In this document: one piece after another, positions 18,878 through 49,969 of the stretch
How the letters are laid out: each line of letters opens with the position of its first letter
How positions within the stretch are numbered: the first letter of the stretch is position 1
Made by a program: the position numbers and the translations under genes
Source: Halopiger aswanensis
Lineage (GTDB): Archaea; Halobacteriota; Halobacteria; Halobacteriales; Natrialbaceae
Assembly (NCBI RefSeq): GCF_003610195.1
Contig: NZ_RAPO01000002.1
Location: 310,001 to 374,000 of the forward strand
Reading direction: 5' to 3'
DNA length: 64,000 nt
The notes under the pieces: model-generated
Database searches by the model: none
Seen by the model: the letters and a program-made list of their open reading frames with translations, nothing else
What the model was told of the DNA's origin: nothing

Positions 18878-21166
18878 TCATTCGTCGACGAACCGCTCGC
18901 GAACCTCGAGCGCCGCGTCTACGCCCGCGTCCGCACCGTAGTAATCCACCAGCGGACAGACGGCGTCGCCGAGCGCCCGCATGCACTGGCCCGATGAAGG
19001 GTACTCGAGGCGCTCCGCGACGGTCGGCCAATCGCGACCCTGGAGCGCCCGCAGTACGAACAGTCGTTCCTCGCGAGCGGTCAGATCGATAGCGTCGGGA
19101 TCCTCGACGAAGTATCGCACGACCAGCCGACGGAACGGTCCGGGGTCGACGTCGAACAGCCCCGGGCCGTAGGCCGCGCCGGCGACGACGCGCCACTCGT
19201 GGTCGTCGAGGCCGGCCGGCGGCGCGGCGGCCGTGTCAACGCTTCGGAGTGCTGTGCGGGCTACATCCGGCTCGAGGTCGTCCAGTGCGTCCGAGCAGAG
19301 CGCGGCGAATCGGCGGGCGAACCACCGAGCGTGGCGGTCCTGCAGTTCGCGGCCGGTCGCGCTCGTCGGATCGAGCATGAGTGCCGAGTACTCGCCGCTG
19401 GCGTCGTTGCGCGTCGTCGAGAGGTGGACCGTCCGGTAGCCGTTCTCGCGCCAGAACTCGAGGAGCCCGGGCGTCGCGCCGAAGCCGGTGCCGAGCCAGT
19501 CGACGTCGTCGCCGAATTCCTCGCGCACGCGCTCGAGCAGTCGCGAGCCCAGCCCGCGCGAGCGCGCTTCGTGGTGGGTCGCGATGCGGACGACGCGCAG
19601 GCCCGCGGGTTCGCCCGCGGACTCGTCGCGAAGCTGGCTCGTGAGCACGTCGGGGAGCATGTTTCCGCGGACGCGGCCGCCCTCGTACATCATCGCCCGC
19701 GTCGCGGGCTCGAGGTTCCCCTCGCGGGCCAGCAGGGCGACGCTGACCACGTGGCCGTCCCGAACCAGCGCGCGGGCCTCGAGGTTCGGCGCGTCGAGCA
19801 GGCGCGCGAGGTCGTTTGGCTCGGTCCGGTAGTGCGCGAGGACGAGCAGGCCGAACGCCTCGCGCAGCAGGGTCTCGTCGGCGAGCAGGTCGTCGGGCTC
19901 GAGGCGTCGGTATTCGACGGTGTCCGGCGTCGCATCAGCGACGAGCGGCGCGACCGGCGGCCGCGCGTCGAGCAAGAGCGCACGGAAGGCCCACACCTCG
20001 ACGGGGTCGCCCGCCGCGTACCGGATCGGCTCGACGAGCGTGCGGTCGACCACCTCGTGGTTACTCTCCGCGAGCCGATCCCGGAAGCGGACGGAGAAGC
20101 CCCGTCCAGCCCCCTCGTAGCCGTGGATCGTCGTCGCGAACGCGACGCGGTCGGCCGCGAGGAAGGCCTCGAGCCGCGAGACGGGCAGCGCGGCGGCCTC
20201 GTCGACGATGACGATGTCAACGGTCTCGAGTTCGTCGACGGCTTCGGCGGGTTCGTGGAACCGGACGCGGCCGCCCGCGGTCGTCTCGAGGCGGCGGGAG
20301 TCGGCCGCCGTCAGGTCGACGTCCTCGAGCCCCTCGCACAGTTCCGTGGCGCGCTCGAAGACCTCCGCGGCGTTACGCGCGTTCGGGGCGGTCACGAGCA
20401 CGTCCTGCCCGTCGGCGGCGAACGCACCCGCGGCCAAGCCGGCGGCGCTCGATTTCCCGCGGCCGCGGTCGGCCTCGAGGACGACGGCGCGCCGGTTGAA
20501 ATCACCATTTGCGTCCGAGACCAGCGATTCGAACGCCTCGACGGCGTCTATCTGATCACTCGTTAGACAGGCCTCGTAGGCGGCGGTCGGGAACCGACGG
20601 GTGTCCGGCGGCTCGAGCGCCGGTTCTTCAACGCGGGGTGCCGGATCGGTCAGCCCGCCGGAGTCGAGTCGCCCGTTCTCGAGGTCGACGATCGAGATGC
20701 CCCGGTGGGCCCGCAGCGTCTCGACGAGTCGCCGGCGGAAGCGGCCGGTGACGTCCTCGAGCGCGAACGGCGGAACGGCCAGCGACTCGTCGAACGCGCC
20801 TCGCCGGTCCGGCCAGTCCTCGAGCGGCGGCGTCAGGAGCACGAGCAGGCCGCCGCCGTCGACCGCGCCGACGACCTTCCCTAAGGCGTTCGGCCGCAGC
20901 CCCTCGTGGGCGTCGAGGATCACGACGTCGCGGGTGGTCCCGAGCAGTTCGCCGGCGTTCGCCTGCGGGAGGTGCTCGCAGCGCAGCCGGTCCGCGGGGC
21001 CGACGAGCGTGGTGTCGGTGATCGCGACCGGCAGGGCGTCGAGGACGGCCTCGAGAGCGTCGTACCCCTGTTCGCGATTCCCGGCGAGCACCAGCACTCG
21101 GCGTTCGTTCGCTCGCGTCGCCTCGGCGCGGAGCGCGTCGGCGTGCCCGACGACGTCGACGGTCAT
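18878..21166 (-). CDS. tmcA: tRNA(Met) cytidine acetyltransferase TmcA
   Basis: The 762-residue protein matches TmcA/Nat10-type enzymes, which make N4-acetylcytidine in tRNA and, in several Archaea, rRNA using ATP and acetyl-CoA. Domains in order are an N-terminal DUF1726-like region, a RecD-like helicase module with Walker A RGRGKSS (about residue 232) and VDEAAALP as Walker B (about residue 316), a GNAT acetyltransferase domain with RSRGLGSRLL, and a C-terminal helical domain. A TATA box (plus-strand 21190-21196) is 27 nt before the ATG, so the mRNA is probably leaderless. Length is normal for the family. Confidence 0.93.
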   Translation of the reverse strand: MTVDVVGHADALRAEATRANERRVLVLAGNREQGYDALEAVLDALPVAITDTTLVGPADRLRCEHLPQANAGELLGTTRDVVILDAHEGLRPNALGKVVGAVDGGGLLVLLTPPLEDWPDRRGAFDESLAVPPFALEDVTGRFRRRLVETLRAHRGISIVDLENGRLDSGGLTDPAPRVEEPALEPPDTRRFPTAAYEACLTSDQIDAVEAFESLVSDANGDFNRRAVVLEADRGRGKSSAAGLAAGAFAADGQDVLVTAPNARNAAEVFERATELCEGLEDVDLTAADSRRLETTAGGRVRFHEPAEAVDELETVDIVIVDEAAALPVSRLEAFLAADRVAFATTIHGYEGAGRGFSVRFRDRLAESNHEVVDRTLVEPIRYAAGDPVEVWAFRALLLDARPPVAPLVADATPDTVEYRRLEPDDLLADETLLREAFGLLVLAHYRTEPNDLARLLDAPNLEARALVRDGHVVSVALLAREGNLEPATRAMMYEGGRVRGNMLPDVLTSQLRDESAGEPAGLRVVRIATHHEARSRGLGSRLLERVREEFGDDVDWLGTGFGATPGLLEFWRENGYRTVHLSTTRNDASGEYSALMLDPTSATGRELQDRHARWFARRFAALCSDALDDLEPDVARTALRSVDTAAAPPAGLDDHEWRVVAGAAYGPGLFDVDPGPFRRLVVRYFVEDPDAIDLTAREERLFVLRALQGRDWPTVAERLEYPSSGQCMRALGDAVCPLVDYYGADAGVDAALEVRERFVDE

Positions 21167-21723: not shown

Positions 21724-21731
21724 CTTTTAAG
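21724..21731 (+). promoter_or_regulatory. TATA box of the rpl7Ae-ndk operon
   Basis: CTTTTAAG at 21724-21731 predicts a transcription start near 21754, only a few bases before the folded leader RNA at 21759. The resulting untranslated leader is about 128 nt, long for a haloarchaeal mRNA. Confidence 0.65.
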
Positions 21732-21758
21732 GGGGGCAACGCTACAGACGTAGTACAC

Positions 21759-21866
21759 CCTACGCGGGGTTGATGATGCTCCTAGCCCCACAGGACTCCC
21801 GCCGATTTTCTATCGGCCCGGGCACCCAGTTCCCGGACGGCAGGGGAGCGCGAGCCCACGCGTAGG
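21759..21866 (+). promoter_or_regulatory. Folded 5-prime leader of rpl7Ae with closing helix next to the Shine-Dalgarno site
   Basis: CCTACGCGGGG (21759-21769) pairs with CCC-A-CGCGTAGG (21855-21866), an 11-bp helix with one bulged A. Inside, GCTCC (21778-21782) pairs with GGAGC (21845-21849), GCCGAT with ATCGGC (21801-21806 and 21812-21817), and CCGGG with CCCGG near 21818-21836. The two strands between the outer and second helices read TTGATGAT and GCGAG, which resembles a kink-turn, the L7Ae-binding motif. The 3-prime arm of the outer helix includes the GG of GGAG (21865-21868), so folding could affect ribosome access. A 31-codon frame (21773-21868) also spans the leader. Confidence 0.55.
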
Positions 21867-21881
21867 AGAGGTGAACAACCT

Positions 21882-22244
21882 ATGTCAGTCTACGTCAACA
21901 CCGACATCCCAGCCGACCTCGCCGACGACGCCCTCGAGGCGCTCGAGGTCGCACGAGACACCGGACGAGTAAAGAAAGGAACCAACGAAACGACGAAGTC
22001 GATCGAGCGCGGCAACGCCGAGCTCGTCTACGTCGCCGAAGACGTCTCGCCCGAAGAGATCGTCATGCACATCCCGGACCTCGCCGACGAGAAGGGCATC
22101 CCCGTCGTCTTCATCGAGACCCAGGACGACGTCGGCCACGCCGCCGGCCTCGAGGTCGGCTCGGCCGCCGCGGCGATCGTCGACGCCGGCGAGGCCTCCG
22201 GCGACGTCGAGGACATCGCCGACAAGGTCGAGGACCTCGACTGA
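21882..22244 (+). CDS. rpl7ae: Large ribosomal subunit protein eL8 / L7Ae
   Basis: The 120-residue protein is archaeal L7Ae, which binds kink-turns in 23S rRNA, box C/D and H/ACA guide RNAs and RNase P RNA. The signature [17 protein letters not shown] (about residues 32-48) and the [13 protein letters not shown] segment are complete. GAGGTG at 21868-21873 is the likely Shine-Dalgarno sequence, 8 nt before the ATG. The gene heads an operon with rps28e, rpl24e and ndk. A kink-turn-like site in its own leader suggests feedback control, which is inference here. Confidence 0.96.
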
Positions 22245-22255
22245 GGTGATTATAC

Positions 22256-22480
22256 ATGAGTGCTGAAGAGGAAGAAAGCGGATCAACGCCCGCCGAGGTC
22301 ATCGAGATCGTCGGCAAGACCGGCATGCACGGCGAAGCCATGCAGGTCAAATGCCGGATTCAGGAGGGCGAGAATCAGGGACGTATCATCACCCGAAACT
22401 GCCTCGGGCCGGTCCGCGAAGGGGACGTGCTCCAGCTTCGGGAGACCGCCCGCGAGGCCGACTCCATCGGAGGTCAGTAA
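22256..22480 (+). CDS. rps28e: Small ribosomal subunit protein eS28 (S28e)
   Basis: The 74-residue protein is S28e, an OB-fold small-subunit protein near the mRNA exit path. The motifs [20 protein letters not shown] and [13 protein letters not shown] together with the C-terminal [13 protein letters not shown] are characteristic. It starts 11 bp after rpl7Ae with a Shine-Dalgarno-like GAGGTGAT (22243-22250) overlapping the end of that gene, and ends 3 bp before rpl24e. Confidence 0.96.
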
Positions 22481-22483
22481 CCA

Positions 22484-22855
22484 ATGGTCGAGAAACGCAC
22501 CTGCGACTACACGGGCGAAGAGATCGAGCCCGGCACGGGTATCATGTACGTCAAGAACGACGGCACCGTGCTGCACTTCGTCGACTCCAAGGCGGAGAAA
22601 AACTACAAGCTCGGTCGCGAACCGCGCGATCTCGAGTGGACCGAGGAAGGTCGTCGCGGCAAGGGCCCCGCTCAGGCGGACACGCCCGCCGACGAGGAAG
22701 CCGACCAGACCGAGCAGGTCGACGCCGCCGAAGACGAGGATGTCGAGGAAGCGACCGAGGTCGCCGAGGACGATGACGAGGACGTCCCTGCCGGGGACGA
22801 AACCGTCGACGAGACCGAGGACGCGGAGGCCGAAACCGAGGAGGCCGAACAATGA
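22484..22855 (+). CDS. rpl24e: Large ribosomal subunit protein eL24 (L24e) with long acidic tail
   Basis: The first about 60 residues are a standard archaeal L24e zinc-ribbon protein ([22 protein letters not shown], then [12 protein letters not shown]). The usual four-Cys site is reduced: only the first Cys is present, as in some Halobacteria. The remaining about 60 residues are a tail made of Glu, Asp, Ala and Thr that roughly doubles the protein. Such tails occur in halophile ribosomal proteins, but this one is long. The gene overlaps ndk by four bases (ATGA). Confidence 0.93.
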
Positions 22856-23316
22856 GCGATCACGAGCGCACCTTCGTGATGGTCAAGCCCGACGCCTTCG
22901 CACGCGGGCTCGTGGGCGAGGTCATCTCTCGACTCGAGGACCGCGGGCTCAAGCTCGTCGGCATCAAGGTCGAGAACATGCCTCGCGAGCGCGCTGAGGA
23001 ACACTACAGCGAGCACGAGGACAAGCCGTTCTACGACGACCTCGTCGATTTCATCACCTCCGGTCCCGTCGTCCCGATGGTCTGGGAGGGCCAGGACGCG
23101 ACCCGTCAGGTCCGCCAGATGATCGGCGAGACCGACCCGCTCGAGGCCGAGCCCGGAACCATCCGCGGCGACTACGCGCTCGATCTCGGTCGGAACGTCG
23201 TTCACGCGGCCGACCACGAGGACGAGGGCGCCAACGAGCGCGAGATCGCGATCCACTTCGACGACGACGAACTGATCGACTACGACCAGCACGACGCCGA
23301 GTGGCTCTACGAGTAA
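22852..23316 (+). CDS. ndk: Nucleoside diphosphate kinase
   Basis: The 154-residue enzyme transfers the gamma phosphate from ATP to other nucleoside diphosphates. It shows the family start [11 protein letters not shown], the [14 protein letters not shown] segment, [16 protein letters not shown] with the phosphorylated histidine (about residue 121) and the C-terminal acidic W-L-Y-E end. It closes the ribosomal operon and is translationally coupled to rpl24e. A T-run follows about 60 bp later. Confidence 0.96.
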
Positions 23317-48333: not shown

Positions 48334-49905
48334 TCAGTCGTCGGCCGGCGCGAGCGGCTCCCGATCCGTCGCGAGCAGCCGGTCGAGCGCGTCGACCATC
48401 GCCTCGACGCTCGCGCGCGTGATGTCGGCCTCGCTGCGGGCGACGGTCACCGAGCGGTCGTTGCGCGCCATCGTCACTTCGACGGTGACGACGGCGTCGG
48501 TACCGCCCGTGACGGCGTCGACGTGGTAGGACTCGAGTTCGGCGTCGGCCATCGACCCCAGCGCCTCCCGAACGGCGGAAACGGCGGCGTCGACGGGCCC
48601 TGAGCCGGTGCCGCTGGCGACGCGTTCCTCGCCGTCGACCTCGAGGCGGATGCTCGCGGTGGGGACGGAGCCCCCGCTCGTGGCGTTTAAATCGAGAAGT
48701 TCGACGACGCGCTCGCGGTCGTCCCCGGTGACGTCTTCGGCGATCGCCAGCAGGTCGGCGTCGGTGACGCGGCGACCGCGATCGCCGAGTTCGGTCACGC
48801 GGGTTGCGATCTCGGCGATCTCGTCGCCCGTCGCCTCGACGTCGTGTTCGTCGAGCGTCGCCTTCACGCCCGCGCGGCCGGTGTGTTTGCCGAGCGCGAG
48901 CCGGCGCTCGCGGCCGACCGTCTCGGGCGCGTAGGGTTCGTACATCTTGTCGTCTTTCAGCGTGCCGTCCGTGTGGATGCCGCTCTCGTGGGTGAAGGCG
49001 TTCTCCCCGATGACGGCCTTGTTCGGCGGCAGTTGGACGCCAGTCGCCCGCGAGACGATCTGTGCGAGGTCGTACAGCTCCTCGAGTTCCAGCGTTTCGA
49101 CGTCGTAGACGTGCGAGAGGGCGATCGCGACCTCCTCGAGCGCCACGTTCCCGGCGCGTTCGCCGAGTCCGTTGACCGTGCAGTGCACGAGGTCGGCGCC
49201 CGAAGCCACGGCCGCGATGGCGTTGGTGACGCCCAGCCCGAGGTCGTCGTGAGTGTGAGCGCTGACAGGCCCTAACTCGGCAAGTCGGGAGACCGCCTCG
49301 GCGGTGCGCTCGGGCCCCGTGTGGCCGACGGTGTCGGCGAAGCAGGCCCGGTCTGCGCCCGCGTCGAGGGCAGTCGCCATGAGCTCCTCGAGGTAATCGA
49401 GGTCGGCCCGGGAGCCGTCCTCGCCGATAACCTCGACCCAGAGGTCGTGGTCGGTGGCGTACTCGACGAGTTCGGCGGTCGCCGCGAGGTTGTCCTCGCG
49501 GGAGGTGCCGACCTTCTCCTCGACGTGGCGGTCGCTGGCGGGAACGACGATGTGAACCCCGTCGACGTCACAGTCGAGCGCGAGGTCGATGTCGTGCTCG
49601 AGGCCGCGACAGAAGCTCGTCACTCGCGCGTCGAGGTCCAGATCGGTGACCCGCGAGATCGCCTGCCGCTCACCCGCGCCGGTACAGGCGCTGCCCGCTT
49701 CGATGACGGCGACGCCCGCGCGCTCTAACGCTCGGGCGATCTCTACTTTTTCGTCGGGCGACAGCGAGACGCCCGGCGCTTGTTCGCCGTCACGAAGCGT
49801 CGTATCGAGAAGGCGGACTGTACGATCCGATGGAATCGTCTGTTCGGTGGAGTGATTGACAGGCAAGAGTGTTGAACTGCGACTACGTTCGTCGCGGAAT
49901 TTCAC
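48334..49905 (-). CDS. Citramalate or 2-isopropylmalate synthase
   Basis: The 523-residue protein is a DRE-TIM metallolyase of the LeuA/CimA group: LLDTTLRDGEQAPG (about residues 32-45), HTHDDLG (about 217-223), GERAGNV and AFTHESGIHTDG are the catalytic and metal-binding segments. The C-terminal about 130 residues form the LeuA allosteric domain. The enzyme makes either (R)-citramalate from pyruvate for isoleucine or 2-isopropylmalate for leucine; the two are hard to separate by eye. The start is a GTG at 49905. A TATA-like box at 49998-50004 would give a leader of about 65 nt holding a short ORF. Confidence 0.85.
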   Translation of the reverse strand: MKFRDERSRSSTLLPVNHSTEQTIPSDRTVRLLDTTLRDGEQAPGVSLSPDEKVEIARALERAGVAVIEAGSACTGAGERQAISRVTDLDLDARVTSFCRGLEHDIDLALDCDVDGVHIVVPASDRHVEEKVGTSREDNLAATAELVEYATDHDLWVEVIGEDGSRADLDYLEELMATALDAGADRACFADTVGHTGPERTAEAVSRLAELGPVSAHTHDDLGLGVTNAIAAVASGADLVHCTVNGLGERAGNVALEEVAIALSHVYDVETLELEELYDLAQIVSRATGVQLPPNKAVIGENAFTHESGIHTDGTLKDDKMYEPYAPETVGRERRLALGKHTGRAGVKATLDEHDVEATGDEIAEIATRVTELGDRGRRVTDADLLAIAEDVTGDDRERVVELLDLNATSGGSVPTASIRLEVDGEERVASGTGSGPVDAAVSAVREALGSMADAELESYHVDAVTGGTDAVVTVEVTMARNDRSVTVARSEADITRASVEAMVDALDRLLATDREPLAPADD

Positions 49906-49969
49906 GCCCAGCCGGGTTGCCCCGACTTCCTCTATCCTCGTCCGGCGTTGAGAACGAATCTCGCGCCAT
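49883..49969 (-). CDS. Possible 28-residue upstream ORF before the synthase
   Basis: ATG at 49969 (minus strand) starts MARDSFSTPDEDRG and ends in TAG at 49883, overlapping the GTG of the synthase in another frame. CTTAAAT (49998-50004) lies about 32 nt upstream of this ATG, so it would be the first, leaderless start on the mRNA. The peptide has no Leu or Ile and so is not a classical attenuator peptide, but its translation could gate the synthase. Chance cannot be excluded. Confidence 0.35.
   Translation of the reverse strand: MARDSFSTPDEDRGSRGNPAGREIPRRT

Follow-up and report, generated by a model that had tools for sequence, protein, structure and literature searches.

The leader of rpl7Ae in Halopiger aswanensis carries an RNA structure that is real and strongly conserved, and in our judgment this structure is likely to be an autogenous control element, an enlarged form of the compact kink-turn (k-turn) leaders of archaeal l7ae genes. 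Judging from sequence comparison, L7Ae most likely limits its own production via this enlarged form of a known archaeal switch. The DNA analyzed, hereafter the window, is a stretch of 64,000 nt of the H. aswanensis genome (GCF_003610195.1, contig NZ_RAPO01000002.1, 310,001-374,000, forward strand), in which the leader occupies positions 21755-21881 (+). The features of the locus are presented in Table 1.

Table 1. Features of the rpl7Ae leader and its surroundings, in window coordinates.
Feature	Position	Strand	Basis
TATA-like box TTTTAA of the rpl7Ae promoter	21725..21730	+	Sequence; promoter spacing in relatives
Conserved UACA, predicted transcript 5-prime end	21754..21757	+	Columns 6-9, 94-99% conserved
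P1 5-prime strand CCUACGCG	21759..21766	+	Compensatory changes; pairs significant in the tree-aware test
C-helix 5-prime strand, GGG plus U.G	21767..21770	+	In relatives, CGG/CCG or GAG/CUC in place of GGG/CCC
Kt-b strand: extra U, bulge GAU, G1b A2b	21771..21776	+	Column conservation
P2 (NC helix) 5-prime strand GCUCCUAGCC	21778..21787	+	Two-sided changes in all five outer P2 pairs
Variable apical region with GGA motif (21794-21796) and two hairpins (folding)	21788..21838	+	12-87 nt among aligned relatives
P2 (NC helix) 3-prime strand GGCAGGGGAGC	21839..21849	+	Covariation tests
Kt-n strand GC-GA-G: 3n region, G2n, A1n, -1n	21850..21854	+	Column conservation
C-helix 3-prime strand CCC	21855..21857	+	Compensatory changes
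Single bulged purine (A here) at the C-helix/P1 junction	21858	+	A or G in 96/99 relatives (column 192)
P1 3-prime strand CGCGUAGG, covering the first two G of GGAG	21859..21866	+	Covariation tests
Shine-Dalgarno core AGGUGA	21869..21874	+	Sequence
rpl7Ae (eL8), putatively controlled gene and gene of the probable ligand	21882..22244	+	TIGR03677, E 5.9e-50
rps28e, rpl24e and ndk, downstream of rpl7Ae	22256..23316	+	NCBIfam matches

Transcription probably starts near A21755: the TATA-like box begins 26-29 nt upstream of the conserved UACA in 97/99 relatives, and this promoter spacing is the sole basis of the prediction. P1 and the predicted 5-prime end are 4 nt apart. In the PDB, 48 distinct L7Ae-family sequences match the rpl7Ae product, and rpl7Ae, rps28e, rpl24e and ndk, which overlap or are closely spaced, probably form one operon. 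Nearby, on the opposite strand, lies the gene of TmcA, a tRNA(Met) cytidine acetyltransferase (18878-21166, NF041296).

A sequence-only reading of this DNA had described an 11-bp closing helix joining the predicted transcript 5-prime end to bases overlapping GGAG, with three inner helices. The closing helix was recovered as 8+3 = 11 Watson-Crick pairs plus a U.G: the two strands of P1 form 8 bp, the C-helix pairs GGG(U) with (G)CCC and is extended by U21770.G21854, and A21858 is bulged between the two. Its junction with the transcript 5-prime end fits the promoter spacing given above, and the inner helices were found as P2, formed by the two strands listed in Table 1, and two apical hairpins. 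The overlap with the ribosome-binding region held in part, as P1 covers GGAG at its first two G, whereas the Shine-Dalgarno core lies outside P1, close behind it. From the end of P1 to the AUG there are 15 nt here and 11-19 nt across all aligned relatives. The Kt-b and Kt-n strands are 75 nt apart in this leader; among relatives, the length of P2 (about 10 bp) and that of P1 together with the C-helix (about 12 bp) are nearly constant, unlike that of the apical part. Directly past the P2 5-prime strand stands the apical GGA motif (alignment A3 columns 48-50, G97% G93% A90%), which the model leaves unpaired and which is not part of the k-turn.

The predicted minimum free energy of the leader was -56.4 kcal/mol, compared to -41.2 +/- 3.7 for 200 dinucleotide shuffles (z -4.11), none of which was as good. 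Of 320 segments of the same size drawn from the two strands of the window, 2 had z <= -3.5, so the fold is unusual but not unique within the window. By RNAfold, P1, the C-helix and P2 are about 99% formed without protein (medians). The Shine-Dalgarno core is predicted to be paired weakly. An extension of P1 through a 5-prime CACC and GGUG is confined to species with CACC; a UAC/GUG pairing, which is weaker, has a mean probability of 0.3-0.5. A UCCU/AGGA hairpin competing with P2 was considered and rejected: it is common across species and gone where P2 has changed (L106, L127, L026). Transcription attenuation was likewise set aside, as no terminator-like site was found. Mimicry of rRNA was also considered; the assembly gave no match to LSU rRNA. 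No Rfam 15 model matches the leader, even at E 5; elsewhere in the window, positions 49894-49946 (-) match RF03001, the leuA-Halobacteria RNA, at 70.7 bits, a known haloarchaeal cis-regulatory candidate.

The element is evident in the leaders of 30 relatives and in those of named genera such as Haloferax, Haloarcula, Halorussus and Natrinema. We aligned 33 leaders with MAFFT and built a covariance model from them, R1, which has matches in 368/392 Halobacteriales genomes, in 334/345 of the good ones and in 88/95 genera. The match normally occurs once per genome and, among the matches listed, ends at the start of rpl7Ae. In the H. aswanensis genome the rpl7Ae leader is the sole scoring site (second best E 0.42). 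Weak second matches in some genomes (E 0.003-0.4), several of which resemble coding sequence, were taken as chance, as was the one weak match in the sampled genomes of the phylum outside Halobacteriales (E 0.0018), which is not at an l7ae locus. Two genomes of genus g36 (G334 and G379) gave two weak matches each and not one strong match, and their leaders are possibly split by a long insertion; a related leader (L065) has about 100 nt inserted in its apical part.

The sequence-only reading proposed testing the helices for covariation among Halobacteria leaders, and they are conserved with compensatory changes. In the MAFFT alignment of the 33 leaders, which was not fitted to the model, 94.5% of the proposed cells were paired and 12 of 20 pairs had two-sided changes, compared to 35-53% of cells paired in slid registers; RNAalifold recovered the same helices unprompted. 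When 99 sequences were aligned to R1, 96.1% of cells paired and 16/20 pairs had two-sided (compensatory) changes, with slid registers at 37-54% and 0/500 shuffles reaching any observed measure; this alignment was made with the model and is hence biased toward model pairs. Therefore, we ran a tree-aware null, replaying the substitutions along a FastTree tree with randomly drawn columns. Three of 4851 column pairs reached E <= 0.05 (14-197, 16-195 and 17-194). Since all three are P1 pairs, strict statistical support is confined to P1; the model pairs 15-196, 31-183, 19-191, 33-181 and 32-182 ranked high and were individually not significant in the all-pairs test. For the C-helix and P2, support comes from two-sided changes and from replacements in single leaders, namely CGG/CCG in L126, GAG/CUC in L131, U.G to U-A in L025 and GUGC/GCAC in L026. 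The first two of these fix the C-helix/P1 register and ruled out a P1 register with the purine unbulged. A pairing of the P1 CCU with the apical AGG was not supported, both sides being nearly invariant and giving no covariation in the tree-aware test.

The internal loop, UUGAUGAU / GCGAG (21770-21777 / 21850-21854), had been read as resembling a k-turn, and this resemblance was upheld: the GA nucleotides are essentially invariant and the consensus is kept across relatives. We observed G1b (column 27), A2b (column 29) and A1n each in 99/99 sequences, G at -1n in 98/99, and the bulge GAU with G in 94/99, A in 98/99 and U in 99/99. With this bulge, tandem G.A/A.G and two flanking helices, the putative k-turn fits the consensus, and unpaired bases that stay invariant while the helices vary are as predicted for a protein-bound motif. 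The loop usually carries one extra pyrimidine before GAU and a 1x2 mismatch past the GA pairs, compared to the 3-nt bulge of the textbook form; the extra pyrimidine is absent, leaving a plain 3-nt bulge, in L025 and in the leaders of genera g74 and g89 (L214, L217, L218).

Position 2n is G in 84/99 sequences and A in 15/99, and all 15 A2n sequences belong to family f12 (L023, L187, L189, L190, L192, L193, L195, L200, L201, L204, L206, L208-L211). The sampled members of f12 thus have throughout a natural A.A k-turn (2b.2n), in which the extra loop position is nearly always C. This substitution does not break the motif, because L7Ae binds an A2n k-turn, Kt-23 of T. solenopsae, with which Huang and Lilley crystallised it (PMC3985660). 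Kt-23 likewise has A.A at 2b.2n; it is derived from rRNA and called rare in that work, whereas in f12 the pair characterizes a whole family and stands in an mRNA leader.

RNAfold, which has no k-turn model and cannot score k-turns, folds the loop into a straight form instead, with alignment pairs 26-186 and 27-185 (median probability 0.60 and 0.76), and these pairs are possible in 94-99 of the 99 sequences. The loop could on these grounds be a straight bulged stem whose resemblance to a k-turn is coincidental. We regard this as extremely improbable: A25 and A29 would become bulges despite 99-100% conservation, and neither pair ever varies on its 5-prime side, while the k-turn consensus accounts for the invariant bases.

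The L7Ae encoded here aligns with PDB chain 1rlg_A, which we take to be L7Ae of A. fulgidus, at an offset of two, so that N35 and E36 would correspond to N33 and E34. In the studies of l7ae leaders, N33 and E34 of L7Ae contact G2n and G1b (PMC5539422, PMC6298567). Those studies described leaders with GAU-GA k-turns in S. acidocaldarius and A. fulgidus to which L7Ae binds and whose translation is repressed. The compact leaders share with the haloarchaeal leader the gene, the position adjacent to the Shine-Dalgarno site, and the GAU bulge followed by the GA/GA core. Their hairpins are small and have little stability of their own, and the k-turn contains or adjoins the Shine-Dalgarno site, whereas the haloarchaeal leader is about 90-170 nt long, branched in many species and predicted to be stable alone, and about 12 bp separate its k-turn from the Shine-Dalgarno site. 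It was also considered that the ligand is another operon product or RNA-binding protein (e.g. S28e or L24e), or that the apical GGA binds another factor, the k-turn being architectural only. The GGA motif is indeed conserved although it lies outside the k-turn, and k-turns can act as architecture in riboswitches (PMC4316175). However, rpl7Ae stands first among these genes and its product is the archetypal k-turn binder, which the compact leaders of the same gene are known to bind, and we hold such a ligand to be very unlikely.

Autoregulation of this kind, which the sequence-only reading cited for the Sulfolobales, is described there, but it has also been proposed and partly tested in several other archaea, including Haloferax volcanii (Daume 2017, PMC5539422). 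The H. volcanii test, made on the same gene in the same order, used about 50 bp of upstream sequence with an E. coli reporter and S. acidocaldarius L7Ae; a further Kt-b strand was noted upstream in the alignment of that work. As 103-106 nt separate the Kt-b strand from the ATG in ten Haloferax species (H. volcanii not among them), the 50-bp fragment probably held, of the haloarchaeal structure, Kt-n only and not the whole k-turn. The same authors stated high leader conservation for Sulfolobales only, which is contradicted for Halobacteriales by our data. Haloferax is absent from the text of Huang 2019 (PMC6298567), and no haloarchaeal L7Ae leader appears in the new-motif table of Eckert and Weinberg 2020 (PMC7247131). 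The leaders in the latter work, such as that of S15 in Halobacteria, are likewise structured, covarying cis-elements before ribosomal-protein genes with predicted autogenous control; the S15 leader differs from the L7Ae leader in gene and structure. The idea of autoregulation is not new; no description of the enlarged haloarchaeal form was found in the open main texts searched, and an earlier description is possible.

Two divergent haloarchaeal families, f9 and f11, have no large RNA; right at their Shine-Dalgarno site stands instead a compact hairpin resembling a k-turn, as in L221 (CGU-GAU-GA-AGCGC-GCUA-GCGCU-GA-ACG-AGGUGA) and similarly in L029 and L030. Most of the sampled leaders from methanogen-side Halobacteriota, read by eye, also have a k-turn-like hairpin at the Shine-Dalgarno site, e.g. 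CCUGAUGAUUGAUGAAGGGCGAAAGCCCUGAAGGAGG (L224). A divergent leader of family f13 (L219) was missed by R1, yet its P1 is long and its GAU-GA/GA core canonical. The A+T-rich rpl7Ae leader of L222 (family f2) lacks the large element and shows no clear compact k-turn either. On the simplest reading, in which the direction is read without a tree, the large haloarchaeal leader would be an enlarged compact ancestral leader. The proposal that it is the haloarchaeal counterpart of the known L7Ae leaders thereby draws support from conserved helices, the k-turn consensus and compact hairpins at the same place in relatives. A k-turn in the leader of nop5 in the H. aswanensis genome was considered and dropped, as nop5 looks leaderless by promoter spacing (by eye).

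The leader could alternatively be a stable RNA platform for mRNA stability or for a fixed low translation initiation, its 5-prime end locked in P1, with any L7Ae binding having no regulatory effect. Its nearly complete predicted folding without protein and the short distance from the predicted 5-prime end to P1 are in favor of such a role, as is the work of Babski 2016, in which most haloarchaeal mRNAs are leaderless and control by structured leaders is argued to be untypical. A platform leaves unexplained, however, the invariant A2b, A1n and G1b amid covarying helices, the L7Ae gene as sole carrier in the H. aswanensis genome and the compact k-turn-like hairpins of relatives, and we consider it unlikely.

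In the autogenous control that we favor, surplus L7Ae, unclaimed by ribosomes, RNase P or guide RNPs, would bind the loop and convert the stem from its straight, alternative pairing to the kinked form. The kinked form would clamp the end of P1 so that the adjoining Shine-Dalgarno site becomes unusable by 30S subunits, and translation of L7Ae, perhaps also of the downstream genes, would drop. The on/off step would in the preferred version be the straight-to-kinked switch driven by L7Ae, and repression would occur through clamping or steric blocking and not through full sequestration, because the Shine-Dalgarno core is paired weakly. The A. fulgidus l7ae leader is unstructured without L7Ae (PMC5539422, PMC6298567). 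Since the haloarchaeal stem hardly reaches over the Shine-Dalgarno site and, by prediction, is stable without protein, its switching would not simply be A. fulgidus-like; the stable stem predicted by RNAfold would argue against an unstructured free state of the haloarchaeal leader. A more specific and rather doubtful proposal is that the leader works by geometry and not by melting: the stem would always be formed, L7Ae would toggle it between straight and kinked, and kinking would swing the apical GGA against the Shine-Dalgarno end of P1 as a bipartite clamp, which is not seen in compact leaders. The swing of GGA is suggested because P1 plus C-helix and P2 are near-constant in length while the apical part varies.

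These results place a nearly universal, single-copy and strongly covarying structured leader in a group said to use few such leaders (Babski 2016). They also suggest that the published test of haloarchaeal L7Ae autoregulation used a fragment apparently without half of the k-turn, so that a clean experiment in Haloferax volcanii is possible, and family f12 provides a natural A.A k-turn. With protein-dependent compact hairpins on one side and a large, predicted-folded stem on the other, the mechanism of an ancient autoregulatory switch becomes directly testable.
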